27,694 bases of DNA from a virus. The notes under the pieces are model-generated. The model searched no databases, was not told the DNA's origin, and was given only the letters and a program-made list of their open reading frames with translations. Positions 1,637 to 6,637 of this stretch are shown here, piece after piece (within the stretch, counting starts at the first letter, position 1; the number at the start of each line of letters is the position of its first letter). A program made the translations under genes and the position numbers. The DNA lies in the IMG/VR virus record IMGVR_UViG_3300027699_000150, positions 1 through 27,694 of that record. One strand, 5' to 3'.

Positions 1637-2326
1637 ATGCCAGCAAAGAAAAAATTTACATTTAACCTGCCAGATGAACCTTGGATTCAGACACGCAATA
1701 AAAATTTAACAGTAGACTTGATTTATAAGGGAGCGCGATATCATGTTTTTAGTGTAGATAATGCTACTAAAAAAGTATGGGCAGTAGAATGGTCAGGCGA
1801 TGACAAAGCACAAGGCGGAGATCCTGCAGACTTTGTTCATGAAGGTCATAGTTTTTATCTATTAGCTTCAAATGAAGACCCTGCGGCTGCTGCTTATTTG
1901 ACCGGGGATGATTGGGTTGTTACACCAATTCCAGATTATGTAGCTGAGATTCCAAATCATCCAGATGACGATGACGGAAATCCAGTTGAAAACGACGATT
2001 ATGAATATACGTATCCAACAACCGGAGTAGTTCAACATTGTTATAAACATGCAGAGGGTTTTGTTTATGATGCAGATACAAATACATTTACATATCCCGA
2101 CTATGCTGATCATAGTGAAGTAGTTTCAAAAGAAGAACTTTTTAAAGGTTTTAATGAAATTTGCATGAATATTGAAGCAGCATTAGCTGATCCGGATAAA
2201 GATTTAGATCCAGAAGATAAAGTAGAACTAGAAGCTCATTGCAAATGGCTCAAAGCTGCACCTACAGTATTTGCAGATGTTGATACTTGGAAAATACCTT
2301 ATCCACAAATTCCATCTTTTGAATAA
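1637..2326 (+). CDS. Acidic protein of unknown function in the fibre gene cluster
   Basis: A 229-residue protein with a basic N-terminus (MPAKKK) and an otherwise acidic body, including a DDDD run near residue 113 and a central Asp/Tyr-rich region. I recognise no catalytic motif, signal peptide or membrane segment. The last 60 residues look helical and charged (PDKDLDPEDKVELEAHCKW). The start is supported by AAGGAAG at 1623-1629 and by the late-promoter octamer at 1612-1619. It sits directly after the Cys-rich virion proteins. Small acidic proteins next to fibre genes are sometimes fibre-assembly chaperones, but that is only a positional guess. It could equally be a minor structural protein. 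Confidence 0.7.
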   Translation: MPAKKKFTFNLPDEPWIQTRNKNLTVDLIYKGARYHVFSVDNATKKVWAVEWSGDDKAQGGDPADFVHEGHSFYLLASNEDPAAAAYLTGDDWVVTPIPDYVAEIPNHPDDDDGNPVENDDYEYTYPTTGVVQHCYKHAEGFVYDADTNTFTYPDYADHSEVVSKEELFKGFNEICMNIEAALADPDKDLDPEDKVELEAHCKWLKAAPTVFADVDTWKIPYPQIPSFE

Positions 2327-2347: not shown

Positions 2348-2421
2348 GCCCTTAATCTTATCTATAAGTAGTTATAACTACTTACACTAAGGGGAAATAG
2401 ATGAGATCAAGGGCTTTTTTT
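2348..2421 (+). terminator. Intrinsic-terminator-like hairpin overlapping the start of the GT9 gene
   Basis: The left arm 2348-2362 pairs with the right arm 2400-2414: 13 Watson-Crick pairs, one G-U and one A-C mismatch. Seven T follow at 2415-2421. The loop contains a perfect 20-base palindrome (2365-2384), an AAGGGGA Shine-Dalgarno (2389-2395) and an octamer resembling a late promoter (2363-2370). The right arm includes the ATG at 2401. It may end transcripts from the 473-2326 unit and also block translation of the next gene on read-through RNA. Confidence 0.6.
2363..2370 (+). promoter_or_regulatory. Possible late promoter octamer inside terminator loop
   Basis: TATAAGTA differs from the T4 consensus TATAAATA at one position. 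A start six bases downstream (about 2376) would give an RNA lacking the left arm of the 2348-2414 hairpin but keeping AAGGGGA before the ATG at 2401. The off-consensus G lowers confidence. Confidence 0.35.
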
Positions 2422-3348
2422 GTGAATGGAGGTTATGGTAGAACTGTCTGTTCTATTCCCGCATTCGAAGCATATGAAAAGGAATCAGATGATTCTGACT
2501 TTATTATAGTTTGTGAAGGAGGTACTGATGCATTCAAGGGACATCCTTTGTTGGATGATCGAACATATGACAATTGGCATAAAAATTTATTTAAAGAAAA
2601 ACTTGTAAATAGAGATATTATTACTACCGAACCTTATCGAATATGGGAATATTATAATCAAAAATGTAATTTAACACAAGGTTTTGATATACAAATTAAT
2701 AATAAAGGAATTAGAAACCTTCCTAAACCTAAAATGTATCTTTCAAAAGAAGAATTGTTAGTTGGTAGACAATTAATTAATCAAGTAAAAGAAAAAGTAA
2801 AAAAAGAAAAAATTATTATTATCCAGCCCTTCGGAAGGGGAATTCAGCATATAGATAATTCTTTTGTAGATAATACCGGCCGTAGTATTGAATTTAAAGA
2901 TTTCAAAACATTAATTAAAAAATTACAAGAACACGATTTTGGAGTAATAGTTATGGCTGAAATGGGTTTTGATTTTTCTAAAGATAATTTCAAAGATGAA
3001 GTTGCTATGCCAGAAAGTGTTTCATTACGACACTGGACTGCTGCTATTAAATTTGCTAATCATTTTATAGGTTGTGACAGCGTAGGACAACATTTATCAT
3101 ATATAGTTGAGACACCTACAACCGTTATTGTTGGACCTACTTTCCCTATAAATATATCTTATCCAGATTGCGATTTCTTTAATATTGTTGATTTAGGAAT
3201 GAAAGGTAGAGTATACGATCCTATTAGAATTATGCCAGATGAAGCTACTGCTAGACATAATGAAAATTTAATGACAATGACTTCTGATATTCAAGATTAT
3301 GTTGTTGATAGAGTATTAGGAAAACCGGAAGACGACGATGCCGAATAA
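2401..3348 (+). CDS. GT9 (heptosyltransferase-like) glycosyltransferase
   Basis: A 315-residue protein with features of the GT-B family GT9 (ADP-heptose:LPS heptosyltransferases). The N-terminus opens with a hydrophobic strand and Gly-rich turn (AFFVNGGYG) followed by a Pro-containing helix (SIPAF), like the first Rossmann unit of GT9. The C-terminal half holds FIGCDSVGQHLSY at about residues 222-234, then PTTVIVGPTFP. This matches the GT9 nucleotide-sugar site pattern DSGxxHxAxAxxxPxxxxxGxT. Canonical DSG is DSV here. Likely role: transfer of heptose or a related sugar from a nucleotide donor in the cytoplasm; the acceptor is unknown. The ATG at 2401 has AAGGGGA five bases upstream but sits inside a terminator-like stem. 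It overlaps the downstream carbamoyltransferase by 11 bases, so coupled translation is likely. The HldD- and GmhB-like genes on the opposite strand could supply its donor. Confidence 0.6.
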   Translation: MRSRAFFVNGGYGRTVCSIPAFEAYEKESDDSDFIIVCEGGTDAFKGHPLLDDRTYDNWHKNLFKEKLVNRDIITTEPYRIWEYYNQKCNLTQGFDIQINNKGIRNLPKPKMYLSKEELLVGRQLINQVKEKVKKEKIIIIQPFGRGIQHIDNSFVDNTGRSIEFKDFKTLIKKLQEHDFGVIVMAEMGFDFSKDNFKDEVAMPESVSLRHWTAAIKFANHFIGCDSVGQHLSYIVETPTTVIVGPTFPINISYPDCDFFNIVDLGMKGRVYDPIRIMPDEATARHNENLMTMTSDIQDYVVDRVLGKPEDDDAE

Positions 3349-5279: not shown

Positions 5280-5681
5280 ATGTTTAATTTGACTAAATTT
5301 TTTAACAAAGGTCTTAAAGATAGTGTTTTATTCTTATCAAATGGTGCAATATCTCACAATGGCCCATGGAAACAAATCTATGCAAATACCCTTGTAGATA
5401 GGTTTTATGTTGGAGACTTTTCTGCTGCAGAATATACTATTTCAGTAGACTTTGATAACGATAACAAAGAATTAATTAAATTATTAGTAACTGCTAGTAT
5501 AAGTGAAGCTAGTATTATTATATACGCTCGAAACAATCTAGGTACAGATCTTGTAGAATTAAGTGCTTCTGTCAACGAAAGCTATGTTGATATTATAGCA
5601 AATCCTACAGCCGGTAAAGACGGTTCTAAAATTATATACACTGTACAGTATTTCCAAAATCAAAATCCACTAATACTCTAA
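5280..5681 (+). CDS. Small unknown protein of the tail-fibre cluster
   Basis: A 133-residue, beta-rich protein with no signal peptide, membrane segment or catalytic motif that I recognise. The first 30 residues (FNLTKFFNKGLKDSVLFLSNG) are amphipathic. The rest alternates hydrophobic and polar residues in the way of a compact beta domain (YTISVDFDND, ASIIIYARNN, SKIIYTVQYF). It starts 10 bases after the carbamoyltransferase and has no Shine-Dalgarno, but a late octamer lies immediately upstream. It is followed by the fibre-like protein at 5735, so a small structural or fibre-attachment role is the best guess. Function is otherwise unknown. Confidence 0.7.
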   Translation: MFNLTKFFNKGLKDSVLFLSNGAISHNGPWKQIYANTLVDRFYVGDFSAAEYTISVDFDNDNKELIKLLVTASISEASIIIYARNNLGTDLVELSASVNESYVDIIANPTAGKDGSKIIYTVQYFQNQNPLIL

Positions 5682-5727
5682 TCCTCTAACATCTATAATA
5701 TGATAAATATGTTTATTAAGAGGATTA
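5679..5727 (+). promoter_or_regulatory. Inverted repeat enclosing a late promoter and covering the next RBS
   Basis: TAATCCTCT (5679-5687) is exactly complementary to AGAGGATTA (5719-5727). The left arm begins at the stop codon of the preceding gene. The right arm contains the AGAGG ribosome binding site of the 5735 gene. The 31-base loop contains GATAAATA (5702-5709). Read-through RNA could pair the two arms and hide the site; RNA starting near 5715 would not contain the left arm. Confidence 0.5.
5702..5709 (+). promoter_or_regulatory. Candidate T4-type late promoter octamer
   Basis: GATAAATA is the same octamer as at 21222 and 27090. T4 spacing gives a start near 5715 and a leader of about 20 nt containing AGAGG before the ATG at 5735. 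Confidence 0.6.
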
Positions 5728-5734
5728 TGATATT

Positions 5735-6637
5735 ATGGCTACAGTTACAAATACTGCGTTAAAATCAAAATATGGGTTTTCAAGTAATGGGTTTTCTGTA
5801 GATGTAAATGGTAATATAACAGCTAGAACATTAGTACAAACAGGTGCTGATATTGATCCTGGGCAACCCGCAGATTTTACAGTAGCCGAAAACGGAGGAG
5901 GCACAGCTTGGACTTTAGCTCCTTCTGTAGGAGAAAATCCTACAATAGCATTGTCTAGAGGTACATCTTATATAATAGATCTATCATTAACTACGACAGC
6001 ATTTTATATATATGATTCTACTCCAGCTCAATATTCTACTGGTTTAACACATTCTACTGGAGTTTCAGGAACAGATGCACAAGGATTAAGTACAGGAAGA
6101 ATGGTTTTTTCTATAGCAACAACTGCTCCTGATACATTAACTTATAGAAATTTATCAGGAACTATTTCAGGTTTAATTAATGTAATAGACCCTGCAGGAC
6201 GATTTGATACTTTAACAGTAAATGGTTCAACAATTTCTACAGATACTATTACAGGAGCATTAACAGTTGCTGGTGGTGTAGGATTTGGAAGCAATTTAAA
6301 TTTAGGTACTAATTTAAATTTAGGAGGTGATGTTACTGCAACAGGAAACATTATTTCTCCAAAAATATATCATGATTCTATTTTAACTGTTGAAGGAGAA
6401 ACTTCAATAGCTATTAAAATAGCAGACACATCTGTAGGTACAGTACTTTCAACTGGATTGAGTATTCCTATAAATAATAGTAATATAAACAGTACTGTTA
6501 TAGGAGACGTAACACCTTCTACCGCAAGTTTTACTTCTACTACAATTTCAGACGCTCCGACTACATTAACGTCAGGAACGAATAAGAAATATGTAGATGA
6601 AACTGCTACAGCATTATCAATAGCATTTGGATTTTAA
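5735..6637 (+). CDS. Tail-fibre-like structural protein with degenerate cupredoxin-like domain
   Basis: A 300-residue Thr/Ser/Gly-rich protein. Residues about 68-151 follow the cupredoxin-like module common in marine T4-like virion proteins: NPTIALSRGTSYIIDL, an FYI strand, TGVSGTDAQG, then APDTLTYRNL and a closing strand. In that module the loop before the last strand normally carries Cys, His and Met copper ligands. Here residues 137-146 (YRNLSGTISG) have none, so it is probably purely structural. Residues 155-215 contain fibre-type repeats (TVNGSTI, GALTVAGGVG, two copies of LNLG, GDVTATGNI). The C-terminus GTNKKYVDETATAL resembles the trimer or attachment ends of phage fibres. The start has AGAGG at 5719-5723 and a late octamer. 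It lies five bases before the giant protein gene, suggesting that both belong to one fibre or baseplate-periphery structure. Confidence 0.75.
   Translation: MATVTNTALKSKYGFSSNGFSVDVNGNITARTLVQTGADIDPGQPADFTVAENGGGTAWTLAPSVGENPTIALSRGTSYIIDLSLTTTAFYIYDSTPAQYSTGLTHSTGVSGTDAQGLSTGRMVFSIATTAPDTLTYRNLSGTISGLINVIDPAGRFDTLTVNGSTISTDTITGALTVAGGVGFGSNLNLGTNLNLGGDVTATGNIISPKIYHDSILTVEGETSIAIKIADTSVGTVLSTGLSIPINNSNINSTVIGDVTPSTASFTSTTISDAPTTLTSGTNKKYVDETATALSIAFGF

Follow-up and report, generated by a model that had tools for sequence, protein, structure and literature searches.

What does a terminator-like hairpin do when one of its arms contains the start codon of the next gene and a late-promoter-like motif lies between its arms? 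The question arises at one locus in a 27.7-kb virus record (27,694 nt), the whole of which was analysed and is henceforth referred to as the window. The window contains tail sheath, sheath stabiliser and head-tail adaptor genes, and because contractile-tail and neck proteins are encoded in it we infer that it derives from a T4-like myovirus. A tRNA search of the window found none. The start codon belongs to a gene for a GT9-like glycosyltransferase. A Pfam search of the window protein itself gave no match; a relative with 64% identity to it (L008) scores 22.3 bits in Pfam, just over the GT9 cut-off of 22. In an annotated phage collection the nearest relatives of the window protein are proteins of Synechococcus and Prochlorococcus phages (~40–50% identity). 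A Nol-like carbamoyltransferase gene lies 3' of the GT9-like gene, and a co-directional gene ends 74 nt ahead of it. Further upstream, an ORF at 473–1579 is rich in cysteine and glycine and has no match in Pfam or PHROG. The features discussed below are as follows.

1637–2326, plus strand: co-directional upstream gene (ORF; weak phrog_9740 match), the proposed source of the read-through that would be stopped.
2348–2364, plus strand: non-coding left arm of the outer stem, GCCCTTAATCTTATCTA (folds, inverted repeat, co-variation with the coding arm).
2363–2370, plus strand: late-promoter-like octamer TATAAGTA (enrichment before ORFs in relatives, near-fixed spacing from the left arm).
2365–2384, plus strand: inner palindrome or hairpin TAAGTAGTTA/TAACTACTTA (fold, inverted-repeat search).
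2376, plus strand: predicted late transcription start (from the octamer position by the T4 rule).
2389–2394, plus strand: Shine-Dalgarno-like (SD) AAGGGG (sequence; unpaired in the read-through fold).
2398–2414, plus strand: right arm of the outer stem (folds, compensatory changes in relatives).
2401–3348, plus strand: GT9-like glycosyltransferase gene (phrog_8954, PHROG 3.6e-126).
2415–2421, plus strand: T7 run, predicted to serve as the terminator's U tract (third base of Ala5 and the codons of Phe6-Phe7).

The hairpin is real and strongly non-random. The folded segment 2346–2421 has an energy of -27.8 kcal/mol (z -5.91), and the longer segment 2340–2430 has a z of -4.88; in each case none of 200 dinucleotide shuffles was as stable. 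Folds and shuffles thus bore out the initial sequence-only reading of a stem with seven T and a start codon in its arm. That reading had counted 15 pairs; there are 16, in two blocks (2348–2353 with 2409–2414, 6 pairs; 2355–2364 with 2398–2407, 10 pairs including one U.G) separated by a single mismatch, A2354.C2408. The right arm consists of the last three leader bases, the ATG and codons 2–5 (giving M R S R A) minus the last base of codon 5. The base of the stem, GCCC/GGGC, is G+C-rich, and T7 abuts it with no gap. The outer loop is long (33 nt) and partly folded: a perfect inner palindrome (2365–2374 with 2375–2384), absent from the earlier reading, holds most of the octamer, stacks on the outer stem and shortens the effective loop. 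Folds of L142, L144, L221 (= L019), L222 (= L007), L225 and L230 likewise contain a predicted inner helix. As had been proposed, the SD lies in the loop, in a 13-nt single-stranded stretch (unpaired 0.87–1.00 in the read-through fold of the window), and the ATG (2401–2403) lies in the right arm, paired throughout. Our terminator scan missed the hairpin because it covered loops of 3–8 nt only.

We collected relatives by six scans of a viral collection and a few other fetches, which gave 367 loci. A leader was assigned to class A if a significant stem between the leader and the 18 nt before the coding T run ended at that run. In the first set this layout was found in 10 of 112 non-redundant upstream regions (≤1/200 shuffles, no gap to the T run), and in a later set, where a gap of ≤1 was required, in 12 of 137 representatives; the 137 include second-copy genes, as the shorter stretch used there left the filter for such copies without any hit, and 20 rows lacking a run of four T. 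The members are the window, L004, L088, L090, L092, L007, L019, L225, L230, L142, L144 (with its near-copy L146) and, weakly, L177. The gap between stem and T run is zero in all 12 class A representatives. The weak member L177 (= L178 = L318; arms 78 nt apart, z -5.6, only TATAAT between the arms) is counted in the class A tallies and left out of the eight-version co-variation and motif tests. L019, too near a contig end for the first tallies, was added for the tree and later tests, and L007 (= L222) gave 0/200, 1/100 and 2/300 across three shuffle tests. One second-copy gene (L115, at 7747) reached 1/200 shuffles with a one-base gap to the T run and was excluded.

The layout is confined to one gene family in the material scanned. 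The scan covered 1,235 ORFs, drawn from the collected loci, from four stretches of cyanophage DNA and from 75 kb of T4. A T run close to the start is present in 542 of them and the class A layout in 12; all 12 belong to the GT9-like family and no other gene in the scan has it. The design is thus repeated within a single gene family and not used generally. In the protein tree (113 rows, built before L225 and L230 were added), the window group and L142/L144/L146 fall into separate, well-supported clades, and at least two changes of the class A label are required when the groups are compared without unlabelled rows. A co-directional ORF lies upstream in 7 of the 7 class A versions with enough sequence, L019 being the version not judged. 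The upstream gene of L225 is related to that of the window (E 3e-14); for L142 no clear relation is seen (E 0.077).

The two arms change together. Over core pairs 1–9, the eight distinct versions form 69 of 72 standard pairs with their own arms, with G.U pairs at core positions 2 and 8; the three mismatched cells are pair 7 of the window and of L225 and pair 9 of L019. When left and right arms were re-paired among versions, 2 of the 40,320 arrangements, the true one included, scored as well as the true one, and the best arrangement in which no arm kept its partner formed 65 core pairs. Cross-pairing energies fit own-arm pairing for most arms, not all: in the window, L019 and L007 the right arm has a slightly better score with the left arm of another lineage than with its own. 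Synonymous changes in the Ser3 codon (TCA/TCT/TCG; pair types at the third base TA 4, AT 3, CG 1) and in the Lys4 codon (AAG/AAA; CG 5, TA 3; the window has Arg there) are mirrored in the non-coding left arm, and because of this mirroring we take the co-variation as direct sequence evidence of selection on the RNA stem. Compensation between the arms, the test by which the earlier reading proposed to stand or fall, was thus found. Shuffles, co-variation and the specificity scan together rule out a chance hairpin.

The octamer TATAAGTA differs at one position from the T4 late consensus TATAAATA. The earlier reading had placed it after the left arm; it does lie between the two arms, at the coordinates given, and overlaps the last two bases of the left arm. 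Within the window alone it is not over-represented (2 + 5 matches on the two strands vs 3 + 3 for the reversed pattern), and we rejected it as a promoter repeated across the window. The evidence for it comes from relatives. Upstream of 365 ORFs from 108 non-redundant loci, a set that includes the GT leaders themselves, we found ATAAATA in 91 regions (17.6 expected; reverse complement 18 vs 12.1), CTAAATA in 45 (8.3 expected) and TATAAGTA in 14 (2.7 expected; reverse complement 3 vs 2.5). This enrichment is strand-specific, and most copies lie 25–40 nt ahead of the start codon. A cyanophage late promoter is given as NATAAATA in PMC2984593. In 8 of 8 class A versions a late-type motif starts 5–7 nt after the 10-nt arm core (15–17 nt from the stem base), while 32–51 nt separate it from the ATG. 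With a near-fixed spacing from the arm and a variable one to the ATG, promoter and left arm move as a unit. The product of shuffle frequencies for this spacing is 1.5e-8, a value that assumes independence and concerns a motif picked after the data had been viewed. Stems bracketing a promoter-like motif, at 0/100 shuffles, number 25 of 173, and 2 of 173 in a control placed 400 nt downstream, in a set that still contains near-copies such as L088/L089. From these sequence patterns we infer that the octamer is an active late promoter. In L064, L068 and L072, TATAAGTA lies, by eye, only ~8–10 nt before an in-frame ATG of the GT9-like gene, so close that a late transcript would have almost no leader.

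The T4 late octamer spans -13 to -6 relative to the start, according to PMC1524935. Applied to the window, this rule predicts a start at 2376, inside the inner palindrome, which it halves. Because 2376 lies 3' of the left arm, a late transcript would lack that arm, which exists solely in transcripts arriving from upstream. The predicted leader 2376–2421 has next to no structure (-0.7 kcal/mol, a stability equalled or exceeded by 199 of 200 shuffles), in agreement with the earlier proposal of a loop-started transcript freed of its left arm. The further proposal that such transcripts are translated agrees with the fold of this short leader and is weakened by longer models (to 2440 or 2460), in which the SD pairs partly with downstream codons (unpaired only 0.17 in 2376–2440), making a fully open late start less likely.

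We consider it probable, from the arrangement of the sequence, that the element is an intrinsic terminator that exempts its own gene by means of a promoter in its loop. The stem, the T run, the order of the parts, the co-variation and the recurrence suggest the following course, in which termination, promoter activity, start site and translation block are all predicted. A polymerase arriving from the upstream gene would transcribe the left arm, the inner hairpin and next the opening codons of the GT9-like gene. As the U7 codons emerge the outer stem would close, and transcription would stop ~20 nt into the coding sequence. In read-through RNA that escaped, the start codon would be held in the stem and translated poorly. 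The late promoter would fire just after the left arm, giving transcripts open at their 5' end that could not terminate at the stem because the left arm is missing. As the gene's own promoter is inside the loop, the stop signal would form only in upstream read-through RNA. The wider claim, to which we give slightly better than even credence, is that coding sequence has come to serve as an intrinsic terminator's 3' half: codons 1–5 would co-evolve with a non-coding arm so that all transcripts but the gene's own are stopped, and the arrangement would have arisen, or been kept, in separated phage lineages.

The main rival is that the hairpin does no more than mask translation, as at T4 e, soc, 49 and I-TevI, with the start hidden, the T run serving as Phe codons and no termination. 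The order left arm, late octamer, SD/ATG is that of the T4 soc, e, 49, segB and I-TevII leaders, the ATG is fully paired in the window, and the gene at 5735 of the window has a hairpin of this kind that lacks a T run. Read-through folds of L144, L146, L019 and L230 show a paired SD; this counts against a pure terminator, which has no need of such pairing, and for the first three of these it suggests that masking may be present as a second layer. Pairing of the AUG is lost or partial elsewhere, however: the ATG is unpaired (0.64–0.87) in L142, L144 and L146 and sits in a bulge in L230, and in the window it is the SD that is unpaired. Nor would a mask require a stem that extends across codon 5 to the T run, or a GCT or GCC codon at Ala5. 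That codon is GCT or GCC in 10 of 10 class A members and 25 of 102 others, and codon 4 ends in G (AAG/AGG) in 8 of 10 vs 9 of 102, counts that are taken over dependent kin sequences and in which the 102 include 17 second-copy genes and rows with a residue other than Lys at position 4. These codons mostly give a G+C base followed by an unbroken T run, which, with the gap-free junction in 12 of 12 and the sister lineages that place a terminator stem ahead of the ATG, favours termination. We did not accept the T run alone as evidence of a terminator, since the family-wide protein motif AFF also fixes it (A5 and F7 invariant in 18/18). On these sequences and models we rank read-through termination first and T4-e-like masking of the start second, masking alone being unlikely but worth keeping in view; either effect is predicted to be bypassed by transcripts from the loop promoter.

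An ordinary terminator of the upstream gene that overlaps the next start by chance, with a fortuitous or independent octamer, would agree with the co-directional gene 74 nt away, the lack of another strong hairpin between the two genes in the folds made, and the separate terminators at the same place in other lineages. It does not account for a late-type motif whose spacing is near-fixed in all eight versions or for the promoter-like matches between the arms in 11 of 19 sister leaders, and we regard it as improbable. We give still less weight to a processing or protein-binding hairpin, such as a site for RNase III-type cleavage or a phage protein's operator. A long, near-perfect stem of 16 pairs with a conserved layout would suit it, but a sequence-specific operator is disfavoured by arms whose sequences change while pairing is kept, the exact junction with the T run is left without explanation, and Rfam at gathering level matched no family in the window.

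The self-exempting terminator also finds support in leaders outside class A. In nineteen further representatives the T run of a significant terminator stem precedes the start codon, and in 11 of these the arms enclose a promoter-like match; inspection by eye places the SD after the T run in all except L213, where it lies in the right arm. The leaders of L195, L184 and L213 are intermediate in layout, with the SD in the right arm and the T run between SD and ATG. In the GT9-like leaders of L105, L121, L122, L128 and L013, the terminator stem has TATATAAT in its loop and TTGTAC or TTGTGC 17 nt before it (spacing by eye), inside the left arm, which looks like a sigma70-type promoter embedded in a terminator. 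GATATATAAT occurs in 12 of the 365 upstream regions against 0.2 expected. Many loci (L111, L115, L120 and L123 among them) have a second GT9-like copy ~2.7 kb downstream, at the end of the carbamoyltransferase gene. These second copies, with no promoter seen, served as a built-in negative control: a terminator-like structure was found in 1 of 17 copies directly after the carbamoyltransferase gene vs 52 of 95 primary copies. The function does not extend to every leader, since 43 of the 95 primary ones have no terminator by the criteria used.

The window contains a second hairpin with a late promoter-like motif, at 5679–5727. In it TAATCCTCT (5679–5687), which overlaps the stop of the preceding ORF, pairs with AGAGGATTA (5719–5727), GATAAATA (5702–5709) lies between the arms, and the ORF at 5735 has its SD in the right arm. 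Its stability is modest in one test (z -2.06, 7/200 shuffles) and higher in another (0/100). As it has no T run, it resembles the hairpin of T4 e.

We compared the element to known systems. In T4 e, soc, 49 and I-TevI, hairpins limit translation to late transcripts, as described in PMC3014915 and PMC2988022. According to these papers, the T4 late-promoter hairpins (e, soc, 49, I-TevI and segB) share with the window element a stem that forms only in upstream transcripts, TATAAATA between the arms and a left arm absent from late transcripts. The control leaders of T4 soc, e, 49, segB and I-TevII, when refolded, gave the published folds, in which the right arm covers the SD/ATG and no T run abuts the stem; in the window the stem reaches into codon 5 and stops where T7 begins, and relatives do not conserve the pairing of the AUG. 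The likeness to e and soc that had been noted at the outset thus extends to the late octamer between the arms; the AUG is paired in the window and open in some relatives, the SD is paired to varying degrees, and what is kept is the junction of stem and T run. Restriction of translation to late transcripts, as also suggested there, presupposes early read-through, and the read-through is probably late too because the rest of the window carries virion genes. A role in shielding the gene from its upstream neighbour would fit better than timing.

Arbiol 2010 and Comeau 2014 reportedly describe PeSLs as composite promoter-terminator motifs of T4-like phages. In papers citing them, PeSLs are promoter early stem loops that shuffle genes (PMC4503421), early promoters being combined with stem loops (PMC4503421, PMC5931544). 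The window element resembles them in uniting a promoter and a terminator stem-loop in one small cassette; it differs in having a late-type promoter inside the stem and a coding 3' arm. An early sigma70-like promoter, which defines PeSLs, is not what the window has, its octamer being of late type, and the sister leaders with TATATAAT come closer. In leader attenuators and intrinsic terminators ahead of genes, a terminator stem also stands right at the gene start. We propose no alternative antiterminator fold of the attenuator kind here; the switch would be the promoter from which the RNA originates. No title or abstract in the open-licence literature searched describes a terminator that has a coding 3' arm and encloses a late promoter.

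Judged from its sequence and that of its relatives, the element, a variation on the T4 e/soc/I-TevI hairpins and PeSLs, is real and under selection and most likely works as a self-exempting terminator in a group of aquatic T4-like viruses. Under the rule given in PMC3037559, a terminator is retained if it is intergenic or lies no more than 10 bp from the end of an ORF, and because pipelines with such a rule would discard elements of this type, similar ones may be hidden elsewhere. The element is also a small natural part for testing promoter-in-loop terminators. If our reading is true, it would insulate a gene from its neighbour compactly, with no extra spacer, and the promoter of origin would decide whether the terminator forms, with no protein or ligand needed. 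It would also explain, in a way open to measurement, which codons are chosen where a gene begins.
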